Position numbers and translations under genes: made by a program. From Polyangiaceae bacterium (GTDB taxonomy: Bacteria; Myxococcota_A; Polyangia; Polyangiales; Polyangiaceae), in contig JABSRN010000047.1 in the NCBI GenBank assembly GCA_013214025.1, positions 1 to 56,295 on the forward strand: a DNA stretch of 56,295 nucleotides, written 5' to 3'. A model generated the notes under the pieces. The model was not told where the DNA came from and made no database searches. It was given only the letters and a program-made list of their open reading frames with translations. Of this stretch, positions 23,950 through 34,668 are shown one piece after another (position 1 is the stretch's first letter; each line of letters opens with the position of its first letter).

Positions 23950-26900
23950 ATGTTCCTTTCCTCATCCGCTTCTTGGCGAGCTGCCACCTCTTGGCCAGCC
24001 GTCACTTTCTGCCTGCTGTTCCTATTTGCGTGTTCGCCGGCAACCGAACAGGAGCCGAGCATAGTCGCGACGCCCAATGGCAACACGGGCACCGACGGAA
24101 CGACGGGCACCGGCGGCGCTGGCGGTAGCGGAGACAACGGCGGCTCAGGCGGCGCACTCATCTTCAACGGACCGACGGGCCCAGCCGATTGCACCCCGAA
24201 AACCTGTGCGGACTTCGCGTCCGCCGACTTCGGCTCTTGCGGGGTGATTCTCACCGGATGCGATCTGGACGGGGACCCAGAGAATGCCATCGACCAAGTA
24301 CAGTGTGGTGATTGCGGAACCGGCGAATCCTGCAGCTTGGAGGTGGGCAACCTCTGCGCTCCGACGCCCATTGACTGTGTGCCCTGGAATCAGATTGCTG
24401 CCTGCGACGGTCGCTGCGGACCGGTGGGCGATAACTGCGGTAGCATCTACCAATGCGGGGAAGAATGCGGCCCCAGCACCGTGTGTTCGAACTTTCCTGT
24501 GGTGGGCGTGTGCACGGACAAATGCATTCCCGTAAGCGATAGCATCACTTGTGAGGGCAAGTGCGGTGACGTCCTCAACAATTGCGACGAAAAAGTCGCC
24601 TGCGGCAACGTCTGCCAGCCGGGCTTCGCCTGTGGCCTCCTTGTCGCGAGCGAGTGCGGCCAAATCGAGTCCGACTGCACCCAACTATTCTACGACGATT
24701 TATGTCCTGGAAAATGCGGCGACTTCAACGACGGATGTGGCGGCAAGGTCGTCTGTGACATGTGCCCAGACGGGTTCGGTTGCGGAGGATACGGCGATAC
24801 GGGCGTCGTCAACGAGTGCGGCGAAACCCCCACCGGTGACGATGAAAACTGCCCGGCCAAGATCAACAGCTGCGCGGAAGTCGCTAAGGACTGTGGAATC
24901 ATCTCGAACGGCTGCGGCGGAACGATCGACTGCGATGCGGAATCCGGCGGCTGCGGCAACGCGGAAATCTGCGGAACCATCACCCCGAGCGTATGCGATA
25001 TCCCGCCCGCCTGTGAGCCGCTGAGTGCGGCCGCCGCATGCGCCGGCACCTGCGGCATTGTCACGAACGGCTGCAGCTCTACCATCGACTGCGCCACTCA
25101 AGGCTTTCCCTGCCCGGACGGTGAGTCCTGCGGGGGTGGCGGTAGCCCTGGCGTGTGTGGCGCTGGCGATCCGAGCAACTGCACCCCATTCACGGCGGCA
25201 ACACTCTGCCCCGGAAAGTGCGGAATCTTTGCTGATGGCTGCGGCAGCACGGTGGACTGCAGCTCGAACGCCAACAACGGCCCTTGCACCAACGACGAGT
25301 GGTGCGGCGGCGGCAGTGTCGCCAATGAGTGCGGCAAACCTGCCTGTGTCACCACGAGCCCAGCAGAAGCCTGCGCCGGTGACAAATGCGGACAGGTCAG
25401 CGACGGCTGTGATGGCCTGATGGACTGCGGCGGCTGTGACCCCGGCGACATCTGTGGCCTGACGGCGACCAACTCTTGTGGCACGCCTCAGTGTCAAGCG
25501 ATCCCAGTAGACGCAGCCTGTGCCGGCAAGTGCGCTTCTGTGTCCGACGGTTGTGGAGCAAGCTATACCTGTAACAACGGCAATGGTGGCGTCACCTGCC
25601 AGGAGCCAGCGTACTGCGGCGGTGGCGGCGTCGCCAACAACTGCGGGCAACCGTCCTGCACGACGCAAACCTGCGCGCAGCAGGGTTATACCTGCGGCAT
25701 TGCTCCCGACAACTGCGGCGGCTTCGTCGACTGTTGGGACGAAACGGGCAACACGGCCCGCACGTGCTCCCAGAGCAACGCTACCTGTATGGGCACCCCG
25801 TCGACCTGTGTGTCGAGCGGCGGCGGAGGCGGCAACTGCACCGGGCCCTTGTGCGATAACATCTCCGCCTGCTCGGACAGTGCGCCCACCAAGATAACGG
25901 GACGCGTCACCACTCCGGACGGCGAGGTCGGCATCCCCAATGCCCTCGTCTACATCCCCCAGGATCCCAGCGCGACGCTCCCGGCGATCACTCAGGGTCC
26001 CTCCTGCGACCGTTGTGAAGACGAAGATCTCGGCCCCGTGCTCGTCAGCGCGCTCACCGGCTACGATGGTTACTTCTCGCTCGATCTGAACGTTCCCACA
26101 GGCACCGATTTTAAGCTCGTGGTCAAGATCGGGAAGTGGCGACGCGCCATCACTGTTGGGAGCACAGTCCTCAACGAGTGTCAAACCAACGCCATCGGCG
26201 AGACCTACACCCGACTTCCGAGGAATCAGAATGACGGCCTGGCCGGCACCCAGATCCCGAAGATCGCCATCTCCACCGGTCGCCGGGACGAGATGGAATG
26301 TGTGTTCGAGAAGATTGGCATCGACGACGACGAGTTCACGGCGCCAAACGTTGCCGCCGGCCAAAAGGACGGTCGCATCCATCTCTACCGCTCCAACGGT
26401 GCCCGCATCCGCACCCGAGTGTACGCCTGCGAAGGTGGCGGTTTGTTTGGCAGCGACGATTGCGACGATGCTGACCACGACAATGAAGCCGCATGTGAGG
26501 CGGATTCGGATTGTGACTGGGAGTACAACGAGGAAGACGGCTCAGTTGCCGACACCACGCTGTTCTCAGACCAAGCAACGCTTAACAACTACGACATGGT
26601 CGTCTTCGATTGCGAAGGCACCGCCTGGACCGAACACAAACCTCACGATGAAAAGGTGCGCGACTACGCCGAGGCCGGCGGTCGTATCTTCGCGAGCCAC
26701 TTTAGTTTTGGCTGGCTGTTTAACACGGCGCGCTTCTCGGCGTCCGCCGAGTGGGACACCGATACCGACTACCCGGATAATGGCACGGGACTTGTCTCTG
26801 TTGGCCGTCCCATGGCCAACGATATCAAGGTCGCCAACTTCCGCGACTGGCTGAACTACGAGGATGCGCTGACAGGTACCAACCCGCCACGTTTTGCGAT

Positions 26901-28692
26901 CACCGACCCCCGCGACAACGCCCTGCAGGTCCTCGCCGGATCTGAAGAATGGGTCTACCGCGAGACCGGTACGGACACCACCTCCGTGCAGCAGTTCTCG
27001 TTCAACACCCCGCTTGGCGAAACTTCGGAGAACATCTGTGGTCGAGTCGCCTACAGTGCCTTCCACGTCGCGGGCGCCGACAACGATTCGAGCGGCGATT
27101 ACTTCCCGGGCGTCTGCAACGGCGACACTCTCACCTCTCAGGAGAAGGTGCTAGTCTACATGTTGTTCGACTTAGCCGCCTGCGTGTCCGAAGGCGAGCC
27201 TCCCCAGCCTCCCTCGTGCACTCCCCAGACCAGCGACGATCTGTGTGTGAGTGATGCTTGTGGCATCTTCTCCGACGGCTGTGGTGACATCATCGACTGT
27301 GGCGACAGCTGCCCCGGCGACCAATACTGCAGCAGCAATATCTGTACAGACCGGGAATGCACCGTGGCGACCTGCGGTTCCTTGGGCGCCAACTGCGGCA
27401 TTGTGCCTGATGGTTGCGGCGGCTCCGACGACTGCGGCATCTGTGCCGAGGGCCAGGTCTGTGGCTACGAGCAGCCGAACATCTGCGGGCAGCCCCTGTG
27501 CACCCCCGATACCTACGACGATGTCTGTGTCATAGGTTCCTGCGGTACCGTCTCCGACGGCTGCGGTGGCGTCATTGACTGCGGCAGCTGCAGCTTGCCC
27601 GAGGTCTGCGGCGGCGGTGGCACAGCCAATATGTGTGGCGAAGGCAGCTGCGATCCGCGGAGCTGCGAAGATCAGGGCTACGGCTGTGGCATGGCCGGCG
27701 ACGGTTGTGGCAACACCATCGAATGTGCCGCATGCAACCTGCCCGAGACTTGCGGCGGCGGCGGTACTCCTAACGAATGTGGTCAGCCCAGCTGTCCTCC
27801 CCAAAGCTGTAACGATGTGGGCGCCGAGTGTGGCTTCATCGGCGACGGTTGCGGCGGAGCCGTCGACTGCGGTGTTTGCCCGAACAACGGCGTCTGCGGC
27901 GGCGCCGGGCCCAACCTCTGCGGTGGCGCCTGTGTCACAGTGGGTTGCGACGACGTCGGCGCCGATTGCGGCGCAATCGGCGACGGCTGCGGCGGCATCG
28001 TCGATTGCGGCCCCTGCACCAACGGCCAAATCTGTGGCTGGCAGACGGCCAACATCTGCGACGCCCCCCCCACCTGCAGCACGACCACGTGCCAGGCCGA
28101 AAGTGCCGAATGTGGCTTCATCGGTGACGGTTGCGGAGCCAGCGTGGACTGCGGTCCCTGTACCGAGCCCGGCGAAAGCTGCGGCGGTGCGGGTGTGCCG
28201 AACCAATGCGGGATCGGGACCAGCGAGTGTGAGGTCACCACCTGCGGAGCCGAAGGCGCCCAGTGTGGGCTCATCGGCGACGGCTGCAGCGCCACCATCA
28301 ACTGCGGCGACTGCCCGAACAACGAGACCTGCGGAGCGCTGTCGCCCAATCAGTGTGCGGGTTGTACGCCGCTCGATTGTGCGGGCGCTGGAGCCGAGTG
28401 TGATCTCATCGGAGACGGCTGCGGCAGTGTCATCGACTGCGGTCCCTGTACCGGTACTGACGAGACCTGTGGCGGCGCAGGTACACCGAACCAGTGTGGA
28501 GTCGGCGATACGGGCTGTTACCCCGCCACCTGCGAGGAGCTGAACGTGGACTGCAACACCGGCGGCTCCTGTGCGGAGTGTGGCGCGGTCGCGGACGGTT
28601 GCGGCGGCTTGCTGCAATGTGGCACCTGTCCCGAAGGTGACGCTTGCGGCGCCCAGGGCACGCCCAACAAGTGCCAGGGCATCCCGACCTGA
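23950..28692 (+). CDS. Giant Cys-rich lipoprotein with an embedded carboxypeptidase-regulatory/GATase-like region
   Basis: This 1580-aa protein has a signal peptide ending in LLFLFACS (lipobox FLFAC) and a Gly/Thr/Asn-rich stalk. About ten Cys modules follow (about residues 75-630), built on the pattern CxGxCGxxxDGCGGxxDCGxC with GGGGxxNxCG. The block about 640-1080 is different: KITGRVTTPDGEVGIPNALV starts a carboxypeptidase-regulatory-like beta-sandwich. A segment with YDMVVFDCEGTAW, DYAEAGGRIFASHFSFGWLF and a later VAYSAFHV then resembles a ThuA/class I GATase-like Rossmann fold. A second set of about ten Cys modules (1085-1580) carries a very regular GAECGxIGDGCGGxVDCGxC core. GGAGAG precedes the ATG, and an intrinsic terminator follows at 28724. 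Exposure on the cell surface is inferred; the ligand is unknown. Confidence 0.8.
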   Translation: MFLSSSASWRAATSWPAVTFCLLFLFACSPATEQEPSIVATPNGNTGTDGTTGTGGAGGSGDNGGSGGALIFNGPTGPADCTPKTCADFASADFGSCGVILTGCDLDGDPENAIDQVQCGDCGTGESCSLEVGNLCAPTPIDCVPWNQIAACDGRCGPVGDNCGSIYQCGEECGPSTVCSNFPVVGVCTDKCIPVSDSITCEGKCGDVLNNCDEKVACGNVCQPGFACGLLVASECGQIESDCTQLFYDDLCPGKCGDFNDGCGGKVVCDMCPDGFGCGGYGDTGVVNECGETPTGDDENCPAKINSCAEVAKDCGIISNGCGGTIDCDAESGGCGNAEICGTITPSVCDIPPACEPLSAAAACAGTCGIVTNGCSSTIDCATQGFPCPDGESCGGGGSPGVCGAGDPSNCTPFTAATLCPGKCGIFADGCGSTVDCSSNANNGPCTNDEWCGGGSVANECGKPACVTTSPAEACAGDKCGQVSDGCDGLMDCGGCDPGDICGLTATNSCGTPQCQAIPVDAACAGKCASVSDGCGASYTCNNGNGGVTCQEPAYCGGGGVANNCGQPSCTTQTCAQQGYTCGIAPDNCGGFVDCWDETGNTARTCSQSNATCMGTPSTCVSSGGGGGNCTGPLCDNISACSDSAPTKITGRVTTPDGEVGIPNALVYIPQDPSATLPAITQGPSCDRCEDEDLGPVLVSALTGYDGYFSLDLNVPTGTDFKLVVKIGKWRRAITVGSTVLNECQTNAIGETYTRLPRNQNDGLAGTQIPKIAISTGRRDEMECVFEKIGIDDDEFTAPNVAAGQKDGRIHLYRSNGARIRTRVYACEGGGLFGSDDCDDADHDNEAACEADSDCDWEYNEEDGSVADTTLFSDQATLNNYDMVVFDCEGTAWTEHKPHDEKVRDYAEAGGRIFASHFSFGWLFNTARFSASAEWDTDTDYPDNGTGLVSVGRPMANDIKVANFRDWLNYEDALTGTNPPRFAITDPRDNALQVLAGSEEWVYRETGTDTTSVQQFSFNTPLGETSENICGRVAYSAFHVAGADNDSSGDYFPGVCNGDTLTSQEKVLVYMLFDLAACVSEGEPPQPPSCTPQTSDDLCVSDACGIFSDGCGDIIDCGDSCPGDQYCSSNICTDRECTVATCGSLGANCGIVPDGCGGSDDCGICAEGQVCGYEQPNICGQPLCTPDTYDDVCVIGSCGTVSDGCGGVIDCGSCSLPEVCGGGGTANMCGEGSCDPRSCEDQGYGCGMAGDGCGNTIECAACNLPETCGGGGTPNECGQPSCPPQSCNDVGAECGFIGDGCGGAVDCGVCPNNGVCGGAGPNLCGGACVTVGCDDVGADCGAIGDGCGGIVDCGPCTNGQICGWQTANICDAPPTCSTTTCQAESAECGFIGDGCGASVDCGPCTEPGESCGGAGVPNQCGIGTSECEVTTCGAEGAQCGLIGDGCSATINCGDCPNNETCGALSPNQCAGCTPLDCAGAGAECDLIGDGCGSVIDCGPCTGTDETCGGAGTPNQCGVGDTGCYPATCEELNVDCNTGGSCAECGAVADGCGGLLQCGTCPEGDACGAQGTPNKCQGIPT

Positions 28693-29354: not shown

Positions 29355-29613
29355 GCAAGGTGGAGCTTACAAGGTCACGCGGATGCATTCGTAAACAGGC
29401 GGGTTTCCCGCACAGGCGTGGGGTCCGCCGCCCACACCTATACCCACCTACACTCTCTACTCCTAGAAGAAAAATTCGCCTTGGGCATGCACGGCGGGTG
29501 CAACTTTGCCGTGAATATCGCATTATATGCCGTTACAGGGGCCCTGCCGACGCCATGTGGCTATTGCCGCGACGCCGTCGCACGGAATCCGTCCCCTCGT
29601 TCGGTCTTATTTT

Positions 29614-32600
29614 ATGAAATCGCCTCAGACTTCTTCCGCTATCCGCAGACAACGCTTCTCAGCGGCTACCTATTCCCTCGTCGTGGTTCTCGCAGTGCTT
29701 GCCGGGGCATGTAGCCCGGACAAGCCCCAAGAGAGCGCTTCAAGCGCCGCGAAGATTCAGCCGAAGATCGCGCAGATCCAGCAACGGGTTTCGGTACCAA
29801 CCAGTGCAGAGAGCTGCGACTTGCCAACCACCGCGGCGGGAGTCTGCACCCTGTCGGATCGCTCACTACTCACGATGGGCACGTTCCGGGACGAGGGCAA
29901 CTACGGCGGCGGCGACATCATGTGCGCGACTGACTGGAACTTCCCGATAGGTCCATTCGACGGCGGCACGGGCACGTACTCACCATCCCGCGGTGCGGTT
30001 AAGTTCAATTTTGGTCCCTATACCGACCTCACTACCGTCGATTTAGTTTCGGCGTCCCTCACCCTCTCCGCCCAGACGGGGGATATGCTGGCCGGCACTC
30101 CCGATGCCCAATTGGAAATCGATCGGATCAACAGCGGCAGCTGGACCGCCACCGCTGAGGTCATCGCCGTGAGTGGTGGCGGCGGCGCTTGCAACCCAGC
30201 CTACCAACCCGCCGGGGGCAACGACCGAGGCGATATCGGCGGCGCCAACCTGTTCGTCAGCGCTGCTTTTTCTCGAGATATCGGCGACGGCTTCAGTCCC
30301 GTCGCACTGAACTTCGACGCAACAACTCTCGTATCGAACTGGTTGGATGCCACGTGGGCCAATGACGGTCTGCGGTTTGACGCCGACCGCGGCGGTGTCG
30401 CGATCAAGATCATGACCCCGGCCATCGTGCTGACTTACACCCTTCAGAACGGTGAAGCCTGCGGAGGCGACAGCGCTTGCAGTAGCGGCAACTGCACCGA
30501 CGGCTATTGTTGCGGCTCGGCTGACTGCGGCACCTGCCGGAGTTGTGGCGAGAGCGGCAGCGAAGGCACCTGCACCGACACAGTAGGAGTCGCCTGCGAC
30601 GACAACACCTACTGCAACGGGACCGATACCTGCGGCTCTGGCGGCAACTGCAATCAACATACCGGCGATCCGTGCAGCGAAAGCGGAGGCGGCAGCAGTA
30701 ACTGCGCCGAGTCCTGCAACGAGGCCGCCGACGACTGCACCGCCGCCGACGGCGACGGTACCGACTGCGACGACGGGCTCTTCTGTAACGGTTCAAGCGA
30801 CAAATGCAGCAGCGGCACCTGTAGCGATTTTAGTAACGCGCCCTGCCCCGAAAGCGGAGGCGGCAGCAGTAACTGCTCCGAGTCCTGCAACGAGACCGCC
30901 GATGACTGCACCGCCGCCGACGGCGACGGTACCGATTGCGACGACGGCCTTTACTGCAATGGTTCGAGCGATAAGTGCAGCGGCGGCTCTTGCAGCGATT
31001 TTAGCAACCCCCCGTGCGCCGAAAGCGGCCCGGGTAGCGCCAACTGTGCGGAGTCCTGCGACGAGTCCGGCGACACCTGTACCGCGAACGACGGCGACGG
31101 CACCGAGTGCGAGGACGGACTATTGTGCAACGGGCCCGACGATAAATGCAGCGGCGGCACCTGCAGCGACTTTAGCAACGCCCCGTGCCCGGAGAGTGGC
31201 GCCGGGAGCAGCAATTGCTCCGAGTCCTGCGACGAGTCCGGCGACACATGCGACGCACCCGACGGCGACGGCACTGACTGCGACGATGGCGTCTTCTGCA
31301 CGGTCAGTGACGAGTGCACGGGTGGCACCTGCGGCGGCGGCCCGCGGGACTGCGATGACGGCATCCTCTGCACCGCCGACAGTTGTGCCGGCGTGGCCTG
31401 CGTGAACGTTGCGGAATCGGATGGCTTCGACTGCACGGGCGACTGGAGCGGAGAAGTCTGCCGCAGCAACACCTGCGTGAGCGGCGTCTGCGATACGATT
31501 CGTCTCGCCGGTGTCTTCGAGTGTGCGCCCTCCACTTGTTCGGGCGCCCCGAGTGCCGTCTTCCAGGACGAAGTCTATTGCGACGGCACCATGACCACCG
31601 GAGGCGGCTACCAGGACGACGGCTGCCCGGACTACGCGGCTCCCGCCGCCTGCGGTAACGGACGCTGCAACGGCGCTGTCTGCGATGGCAGCATCTGTAC
31701 CTCGAGCGCGCAGTGCGGACCGCTCTTCTGGTGCGATGTCGGAGTCACTGATCTGTGCATTCCCGACATCAACAACGGTGACAGTTGCTTCGAGGACGAA
31801 CAATGCCCGAATAGCTTCTGCCGGAACGGCAGTTGCTGCGCGACAGATTGTAACAGCGGCGGCACCGACCCCTGCTTCGAATGCGCCATATCCGGCACCG
31901 GCACTTGCCTCCCCTCCGTTACGGGCACCAATTGCGATGACGGCGTCGGCTGCACGACAAGCGACGAATGCAACGCGGGCGCTTGTGCCGGCACGACCGA
32001 CAACACCTTGTGCGACGACAACGAGGACGACTGCACGGTCGACACCTGCGACCAAACCAACGACTGTGTGTTCACTCCGGTCACGGACGGCGACGCTTGC
32101 GCCGCCGACGCGATCACCTGCAGCGCCGACGTCTGCGCCGCTGGCGCTTGCACACACCCGCCGCTGAACAACGATACGGTGATCTGCAACGCGACCGCGC
32201 CGGGTCCCTGCGATGTCGCAGAGTACTGCGAGGACGGCACCACCACGTGCCCGACGGACGTCTTTGACGCCAGCTCCGAATGCCGGGTGGCGGCCTGCAC
32301 GGGGGGCCGCGACGCTGGCGTCGAGACCCTATCAGCAACGTGCAACGGTTCTGGCCCCGCCTGCCCGACCATTACTACCAATGACTGCCCACCTTACGCT
32401 TGCGCAGCAACCGACTGCCGTACGGACTGCGGTAGCGACACCGACTGCGATATCACGGCGTTCTGTAACGGGGGCGCGTGTGAATTCAAGGCCGTGGGTG
32501 GCACTCCCTGCACTGCCGACAACCAGTGCCAAGATTTCTGCTCGCCCGACGACGTGTGTTGCGACCTCGCTTGCGATGGCCAGTGCGAAACCTGCGACAA

Positions 32601-34668
32601 CACGGGAACCTGCGTGCCCACCACGGCCGGCCAGCAGCCGGTATCGCCCCGCACATTGTGTGCAGGGGCCGGACTGTCAGCGGACTGCGAAGGCCGCTGC
32701 AACGGCACGAACCGCACGGAATGCGCCCTGCCGATCACCACGGTGGTCTGCATTGCCCCCACCTGCCCGGGCGGCAACACGCTAAATCCTGAAGTGACCT
32801 GCGACGGCATAGGTTTCTGCCCGACCCAGGTCCCTGTCGATTGCACACCCAACCTTTGCGCGAGCGGCGCCTGCGCCGGAGATTGCCCGGGCGGCGACGG
32901 ACAGTGTTCCGCCGGCTACTACTGCGACAACGGCAACGCCTGTTTGCCCCAAGAGACGGACGGCACGAGCTGCACCCGCGACCGACAATGCGAATCGGGG
33001 TCCTGTGTCGATGGAACGTGCTGCGACTCCAACTGTAGCGGTCAATGCGAGGCATGCAACGTCGCCGGCAGCGAAGGCAGCTGCACCGCCGTCATCGGAG
33101 TGCCCATCAGCCCGCGTCCCGCTTGTGTCGGCACCGGGAGTTGCGGGGGCAGTTGCGACGGCAATGCGACCGGGAGCTGTACTTATCCGGATCCCAGCGT
33201 GGTTTGCCGAACGGCCAACTGCAGCGGCAATACGGCCATTCTTCAGGCTACCTGCGACGGCACGGGTAGCTGCCCACAGATACAAAACCAGATCTGCGGC
33301 TCCGGACAGTGTGACGGCGACAACTGCGACGGCGACTGCACTGTCGACGCCGACTGCAGCACTACCGAGTTCTGCTCGTCCAATGTTTGCACGAGCAAGC
33401 GCGGACTTGGCGAGACCTGCGCCGATTCCACAGAATGTGACAGCGACCGCTGCGTCGATGGTGTTTGCTGCGGCAGCGCCTGCCTGGGCCAGTGTGAAGC
33501 CTGCAACGTCTCCGGCAACGAGGGGCTCTGCACTCCGATCGAGGGCGTACCCCGCGGCACCCGCCCCCGCTGCGAAGGCGACGGCTCCTCCTGTGACGGA
33601 ATTTGTGATGCCGGTGACGGCTTCAACGATGAGTGCACCTACCCCAACGGCAACAGCTGCCGAACGGCGTCGTGCTCGATCAGCACCGACGTCGCCACCC
33701 TGGGCGCCGTCTGCGACGGAACCGGCGCCTGCCCGGCACTGCAGCTAGAGAGCTGCGCTCCTGAATTCGCCTGCGACAGCGGCGGTACCGAGTGCGAGGG
33801 CGACTGCTTCAACGGCGGTAGTTGCTCCGCCGGGCAGTACTGTTCTGCGGGTGTTTGCGTGGCTCAAGTCGGTACCGGCGAGGTCTGCGCTGATGACACC
33901 CAGTGTAGCGGCGGAGCATTCTGTGTCGACGGCGTCTGCTGTGGCTCGGTGTGTGACGACCAGTGCGCAGCCTGTGATGTGCCCGGCTCCCTGGGCACCT
34001 GTACCGCGGTGACCGGCACTCCCCGCGGCGGTCGTCCCCAGTGCAGTGGCTCGAGCGCCTGCGGCGCTGCGTGCGACGGAACCAACGTCGCTAACTGTAG
34101 CTTCCCGGGCGCCGCCGACGCCTGCAGCGTCGCCAGCTGTTCTAACGGCATCGCCCAAACCACCCGAGTCTGTAACGGCGCCGGAACTTGCAGCCCGGCC
34201 ACCGATACCGTCTGTCTGCCCTACCAGTGTGGCGCCACGACCTGCCTCAGCACATGCAGCACGGATCTCGACTGCTCCGGCGGCTTCTGCTTGAGCAGCG
34301 TCTGTGTGCCGACTCTGCCAACGCAGGATTCGTCGTCCACAGACACTGGCCCGCTCAACACCGACGGCGGACCCCTGGTAGGCCCTGACGCCACAACCGC
34401 TACCGACGCCACGGTCTCCCCGGACGCAGCTCCCGTAGGCGATACTGGCACTGTCGTCCCGCCCACGGGCGACGGCGGCATCATCGGCATCGACTCCGGA
34501 CCCCAGTACATCGATGCCGTGGATCGCGGCAGCTGCGACTGCCGAGTCCCGGGCGATCGGCAGTCGAATTCGAGCTCCCCGTGGCTTCTGTTGTCCCTCG
34601 CGGGCATTGGCGCCGCGGCAGCACGACGCCGGCGGCACCCGGGTAGCGCGTCCCTGCCCAAACACTGA
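29614..34668 (+). CDS. Giant Cys-rich surface protein with DNRLRE domain, lipobox and MYXO-CTERM tail
   Basis: This 1684-aa protein starts at the ATG at 29614, giving signal YSLVVVLAVLAGAC with a lipobox Cys at about residue 33. A DNRLRE-type beta-domain (about 60-270: LLTMGTFRDEGNYGGG to TPAIVLTYTL) follows. More than 1200 residues of Cys modules come next, including a block of four near-identical 57-aa repeats (30673-31356) and later CCxSxCxGQCEACNVxGSEGxC modules. A Thr/Asp/Pro-rich stretch (about 1565-1635) leads to the C-terminal signal: CDC, a spacer, the hydrophobic helix WLLLSLAGIGAAAA and RRRRHPG. That is a MYXO-CTERM signal, recognised by myxosortase for delivery to the outer surface. 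An N-terminal lipid anchor and this tail together are unusual. Confidence 0.82.
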   Translation: MKSPQTSSAIRRQRFSAATYSLVVVLAVLAGACSPDKPQESASSAAKIQPKIAQIQQRVSVPTSAESCDLPTTAAGVCTLSDRSLLTMGTFRDEGNYGGGDIMCATDWNFPIGPFDGGTGTYSPSRGAVKFNFGPYTDLTTVDLVSASLTLSAQTGDMLAGTPDAQLEIDRINSGSWTATAEVIAVSGGGGACNPAYQPAGGNDRGDIGGANLFVSAAFSRDIGDGFSPVALNFDATTLVSNWLDATWANDGLRFDADRGGVAIKIMTPAIVLTYTLQNGEACGGDSACSSGNCTDGYCCGSADCGTCRSCGESGSEGTCTDTVGVACDDNTYCNGTDTCGSGGNCNQHTGDPCSESGGGSSNCAESCNEAADDCTAADGDGTDCDDGLFCNGSSDKCSSGTCSDFSNAPCPESGGGSSNCSESCNETADDCTAADGDGTDCDDGLYCNGSSDKCSGGSCSDFSNPPCAESGPGSANCAESCDESGDTCTANDGDGTECEDGLLCNGPDDKCSGGTCSDFSNAPCPESGAGSSNCSESCDESGDTCDAPDGDGTDCDDGVFCTVSDECTGGTCGGGPRDCDDGILCTADSCAGVACVNVAESDGFDCTGDWSGEVCRSNTCVSGVCDTIRLAGVFECAPSTCSGAPSAVFQDEVYCDGTMTTGGGYQDDGCPDYAAPAACGNGRCNGAVCDGSICTSSAQCGPLFWCDVGVTDLCIPDINNGDSCFEDEQCPNSFCRNGSCCATDCNSGGTDPCFECAISGTGTCLPSVTGTNCDDGVGCTTSDECNAGACAGTTDNTLCDDNEDDCTVDTCDQTNDCVFTPVTDGDACAADAITCSADVCAAGACTHPPLNNDTVICNATAPGPCDVAEYCEDGTTTCPTDVFDASSECRVAACTGGRDAGVETLSATCNGSGPACPTITTNDCPPYACAATDCRTDCGSDTDCDITAFCNGGACEFKAVGGTPCTADNQCQDFCSPDDVCCDLACDGQCETCDNTGTCVPTTAGQQPVSPRTLCAGAGLSADCEGRCNGTNRTECALPITTVVCIAPTCPGGNTLNPEVTCDGIGFCPTQVPVDCTPNLCASGACAGDCPGGDGQCSAGYYCDNGNACLPQETDGTSCTRDRQCESGSCVDGTCCDSNCSGQCEACNVAGSEGSCTAVIGVPISPRPACVGTGSCGGSCDGNATGSCTYPDPSVVCRTANCSGNTAILQATCDGTGSCPQIQNQICGSGQCDGDNCDGDCTVDADCSTTEFCSSNVCTSKRGLGETCADSTECDSDRCVDGVCCGSACLGQCEACNVSGNEGLCTPIEGVPRGTRPRCEGDGSSCDGICDAGDGFNDECTYPNGNSCRTASCSISTDVATLGAVCDGTGACPALQLESCAPEFACDSGGTECEGDCFNGGSCSAGQYCSAGVCVAQVGTGEVCADDTQCSGGAFCVDGVCCGSVCDDQCAACDVPGSLGTCTAVTGTPRGGRPQCSGSSACGAACDGTNVANCSFPGAADACSVASCSNGIAQTTRVCNGAGTCSPATDTVCLPYQCGATTCLSTCSTDLDCSGGFCLSSVCVPTLPTQDSSSTDTGPLNTDGGPLVGPDATTATDATVSPDAAPVGDTGTVVPPTGDGGIIGIDSGPQYIDAVDRGSCDCRVPGDRQSNSSSPWLLLSLAGIGAAAARRRRHPGSASLPKH
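30673..31356 (+). repeat. Four tandem 171-bp repeats inside the DNRLRE/MYXO-CTERM gene
   Basis: Copies begin at 30673, 30844, 31015 and 31186, each 171 bp (57 codons) with no indel between starts. Each encodes a module starting CxESGxGSxNCxESC and containing DGDGTDCDDG. Copies 1 and 2 are nearly identical, while copy 4 diverges in its second half. Confidence 0.9.

Follow-up and report, generated by a model that had tools for sequence, protein, structure and literature searches.

Proteins with a MYXO-CTERM tail stay in the inner membrane, retained by a C-terminal helix, until a myxosortase cuts them; that type II secretion then delivers them to the surface is the model of the authors, and lipidation of the signature cysteine is in the literature a prediction (PMC11980579). 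In TraA, Cys-rich repeats have been proposed to make up a rigid stalk (PMC3325183). Here, we describe a protein from a Polyangiaceae genome in which a MYXO-CTERM tail is combined with a lipobox-like N-terminus. The most likely single reading, to which we give about an even chance, is that of a stalk protein at the surface that carries one lipid anchor signal at its N-terminus and another at its C-terminus, both of which are used.

The protein is encoded in the window, by which we mean the whole 56,295-nucleotide stretch of DNA that was analysed. It is Cys-rich, with 203 Cys (12%) in 1684 aa, and runs on the forward strand from an ATG at 29614 to a stop at 34668, the strand on which all its features given below also lie. 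An alternative in-frame ATG upstream at 29527 would add 29 aa ahead of the same hydrophobic core, and a clear ribosome-binding site is absent at both candidate starts. Behind the signal peptide, a linker in which Cys33 is the only Cys (residues 33-67, 29710-29814) leads to an N-terminal domain (residues 68-282, 29815-30459) whose resemblance to DNRLRE is very weak (11.4 bits against a cut-off of 34). This domain gave an unusable single-sequence fold (pLDDT 31), and when residues 33-278 were used as the query, no relative turned up among 183 genomes of the order. Further on lie four tandem 57-aa repeats, ESGxGSxNCxESC... (residues 356-583, 30679-31362), and a stalk of disulfide modules with CxDGVCC...CxGQCEAC units (residues 940-1567, 32431-34314). 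A second linker, without Cys and rich in Ser, Thr, Asp, Pro and Gly, occupies residues 1568-1638 (34315-34527), so that a linker without Cys is found at each end of the protein, one of about 35 aa following Cys33 and one of about 70 aa ahead of the MYXO-CTERM.

A first scan of genome contigs with the whole protein gave no match. Relatives of the stalk were found in 83 of 177 genomes of the order, a 328-aa stretch being 41-53% identical to the stalks of other genomes, and those with named records were mostly MAGs labelled Polyangiaceae, Myxococcales, Myxococcota or Deltaproteobacteria. The predicted model of the 328-aa stretch is a succession of small beta modules (pLDDT 82.8, pTM 0.41). With this model, Foldseek returned no significant PDB match (best E 3.2), VIA-align matched disintegrin and Dickkopf-like domains with a Z of only about 3, and a search of the PDB by sequence found no relative of the stalk. 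TIGR04201, the model of TraA-type Cys-rich repeats, had no match in the 1684-aa protein and was matched weakly by 8 of the 22 members of the stalk alignment, all of them relatives. As modelled, the body is a disulfide-braced stalk resembling that of TraA.

The 56 kb of the window (1-56295) contain at least eight predicted single-signal lipoprotein genes. The upstream neighbour (23950-28692, +) encodes a protein of 1580 aa, 179 of them Cys, that has a lipobox (LFLFACSP) and no MYXO-CTERM and is built of a different Cys repeat, GCGGxxDCGxC. Another predicted lipoprotein (390-2861, +) has an animal-like domain set of Fibrinogen_C, TNFR_c6 and EGF_CA, the last with a match just below its cut-off.

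The N-terminus reads SLVVVLAVLAGA↓C, or in full MKSPQTSSAIRRQRFSAATYSLVVVLAVLAGA↓CSPDKP, where the arrow marks the presumed cleavage. Our rules predict a signal peptide of residues 1-32 (29614-29709) followed by Cys33 (29710-29712), the candidate lipidated +1 cysteine in LAGA↓CSPD. The general layout is that of a lipoprotein signal, with a basic n-region (RRQR), a core (SLVVVLAVL) and then AGA↓C. The first-pass annotation had taken LAVLAGAC for a lipobox; this motif is present as residues 26-33, but it is weaker than was implied, since Ala at -3 and Gly at -2 deviate from the strict consensus [LVI][ASTVI][GAS]C. The N-terminus is probably a non-ideal lipobox, and signal peptidase I, for which AGA↓C likewise makes a good site, could cleave the same bond. 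It is accordingly conceivable, if unlikely, that signal peptidase I makes the cut, that the mature N-terminal Cys stays unlipidated and that the C-terminus is the sole anchor, the situation in TraA and other ordinary MYXO-CTERM proteins. Although AGA↓C conforms to the A-X-A rule, and the same genome encodes PAQA↓CGG proteins (which we take to be DUF2330-like) where the Cys is part of a domain, the hydrophobic core here nearly reaches Cys33, only AGA lying between its last Leu and the cysteine in a short c-region with no polar part, and Cys33 is followed by a linker without Cys.

The composition of cleavage sites also bears on this alternative. Signal calls were made by applying our own site rules to the retrieved loci, and composition tests were added. 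A signal could be recognised in 86 MYXO-CTERM proteins, of which 37 had Cys at +1, about 5-7 times the other common residues when corrected for abundance. The 338 signal-bearing genes had 44 Cys at [LVI].[AGS]↓X sites against 4.3 expected, and at A.A↓X sites they had 12 against 2.1, which argues against a C-terminal anchor alone. Given this 5.7-fold excess, about 5/6 of the A.A↓C sites in this lineage should be real lipoboxes, and the same estimate should apply to the 1684-aa protein. Ala is moreover a common residue at -3 in the rule-selected single-signal lipoproteins of the same loci (19 of 56, with Leu in 16), so the strict consensus describes a preference and not a requirement, and LAGAC itself recurs in another lipoprotein of the same genome (L003). 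Ser at +2 was found in 20 of 41 dual-signal proteins versus 11 of 58 single-signal lipoproteins (p 0.002), an enrichment that may reflect relatedness. A pair of tandem paralogues in another locus (L035:1756-3738 and L035:3794-5728) has CGGTFC immediately behind the signal peptide, and the tail, though MYXO-CTERM-like, stays below the TIGR03901 cut-off; the Cys behind the signal peptide probably belongs to the domain and is a trap for lipobox rules.

At the other end, the tail SCDCRVPGDRQSNSSSPWLLLSLAGIGAAAARRRRHPGSASLPKH has the Cys signature, the helix and the Arg-rich end of a MYXO-CTERM: SCDCR, with the signature cysteines Cys1641-Asp-Cys1643 (34534-34542), is followed by the hydrophobic helix PWLLLSLAGIGAAAA (residues 1656-1670, 34579-34623) and RRRRHPG. 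The identification of this tail as MYXO-CTERM, made at first from the sequence alone, was borne out when TIGR03901 was run, with a match at 34528-34635 scoring 21.0 bits in the protein search and 21.5 bits in the genome search. The pass is narrow, the scores being barely above the cut-off of 20; failure of the C-terminal model, which had been named as grounds for abandoning the double-signal idea, thus did not occur. Counts for the protein's own genome are based on TIGR03901 matches and retrieved stretches, and nine matches stood above the cut-off. A myxosortase, for which a genome search had been proposed, was indeed found: one clear enzyme of the MrtC type (NF040594, 287.7 bits, cut-off 195), while the MrtX model had no match over its cut-off in this genome. 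Three Lgt-family genes (G000:C24:1163-1900, C138:43678-44532 and C150:80172-80858), LspA and a GspD type II secretin are encoded as well, and the sole LspA found adjoins one of the three. Both signals, and machinery for both (MrtC, Lgt, LspA and GspD), are hence present in one genome, and to that extent the proposal of a chain held at both ends stands. Guo et al. have reportedly proposed an Lgt-like enzyme for the MYXO-CTERM Cys, which makes the extra Lgt paralogues candidates for this step.

The pair of signals had been presented as a feature of one protein and turned out to mark a class. Three sources supplied the MYXO-CTERM genes, namely 60 genomes of the family, a phylum-wide draw and the stalk relatives, and the genes with a closed 5' end, 139 in all, were counted. 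By our own rules, and with the stalk relatives forming a non-random part of the sample, 41 of these N-termini were lipobox-like, 73 were of the signal peptidase I type and 25 were uncallable. The 73 ordinary N-termini are in favour of anchoring through the C-terminus alone. The lipobox-like rate was 10 of 46 among the family genes, an unselected sample picked by TIGR03901 score alone, and 4 of 39 in the loci of the phylum draw, which were mostly outside the family. At 50% identity over half of the length the 41 dual-signal proteins formed 32 clusters, and many of their tails pass the TIGR03901 cut-off individually. Many of the cases are from MAGs, while one (L147) comes from a 13.2 Mb genome in two contigs. 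The genome of the 1684-aa protein has a second case, GTTA↓CGSPE (L026), with a tail below the TIGR03901 cut-off. Since the pair recurs in tens of unrelated proteins, spread over these 32 clusters and over several families of the phylum, and since the lipoboxes that accompany a MYXO-CTERM resemble those of single-signal lipoproteins, an accident of domain shuffling that left one of two sufficient signals idle is very improbable, even though either type of N-terminus is found on Cys-rich MYXO-CTERM proteins. A tie between the lipobox and a Cys-rich body was also considered; it was strong in the pooled genes (p 6.5e-05) and weak in the unselected sample (p 0.07-0.12), and we do not claim it.

The number of cysteines provides a further indication. 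Counting as body those between the lipobox Cys and the final 50 residues, the number was even in 29 of 35 Cys-rich dual proteins (p 0.00012, a value inflated by the relatedness of repeats) and in 31 of 41 MYXO-CTERM proteins of the signal peptidase I type. The 1684-aa protein has 200, which by itself is an even number of coin-toss weight. An even count would place the N-terminal Cys outside disulfide pairing, and the simplest reading of the counts would be that body cysteines pair among themselves and that the N-terminal Cys is spare, as a lipidated Cys should be. That the body is even without Cys33 speaks once more against the C-terminus as the only anchor.

From the two signals, their recurrence, the even body cysteines and the enzymes present, we infer two lipidations, retention at both ends, a surface position and the shape of an arch. 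The protein would be exported by Sec, Lgt would add diacylglyceryl to Cys33 and LspA would cleave. The Cys-rich body would then fold into disulfide modules while the C-terminal helix keeps the protein in the inner membrane, after which the MYXO-CTERM Cys would be lipidated, MrtC would take off the helix and type II secretion would carry the protein to the surface. The product would be an arch about 1600 residues long and braced by disulfides, whose two ends would be fastened through flexible linkers in the outer leaflet of the outer membrane.

The same enzymes could also leave the N-terminus as the sole final anchor, if the helix were a temporary hold in the inner membrane from which MrtC frees the folded protein with its C-terminal Cys unlipidated. 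We consider this rather doubtful. Lipidation of the MYXO-CTERM Cys is so far a prediction, and cleavage without prior modification is kept as possible though unlikely in PMC11980579; according to the same paper, however, TraA, for which no lipobox is reported, needs MYXO-CTERM processing for surface anchoring, so the C-terminus is able to anchor alone.

If anchoring at both ends holds, a single chain in a bacterium would use two lipid-anchoring pathways whose topologies are opposite, and would finish as a loop at the surface. As many relatives have both signals too, some myxobacterial proteins may be lipid-anchored at both ends. More tentatively, and with somewhat less than an even chance, Myxococcota could possess a broad class of surface proteins in which both terminal cysteines are lipidated, one by Lgt and LspA and the other in the myxosortase pathway, to give closed loops or arches on the outer membrane. 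No bacterial precedent for double-ended lipid anchoring was found in the portion of the literature searched, nor was a report of dual signals as a recurring class, the founding myxosortase paper being outside the reach of that search, and the available text of PMC11980579 has no description of dual signals. The parts themselves are known. With both signals in use, dual proteins would bear at their other end a lipid that serves as an internal control, and would thus offer a direct test of whether, and by which enzyme, the MYXO-CTERM Cys is lipidated.

Among known systems, pullulanase has a lipidated N-terminal Cys and passes through the T2SS to the surface. It is, like the protein proposed here, a lipoprotein exported by type II secretion (cited in PMC11980579), but it has no second signal at the C-terminus. 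The Hedgehog proteins of animals are likewise secreted with one lipid per end (PMC11036296), whereas protein, enzymes and lipids are unrelated to the bacterial case and the likeness is one of analogy only. TraA differs from the 1684-aa protein and its lipobox-like site in having no reported lipobox and in its PA14 tip domain, for which the 1684-aa protein gave no Pfam match at E up to 1, and MXAN_4924 is reported with a type I signal. Both of these Myxococcus xanthus proteins share with it the order of a signal peptide, an N-terminal domain, a stalk of Cys-rich repeats and a MYXO-CTERM processed by myxosortase (PMC3325183; PMC11980579).
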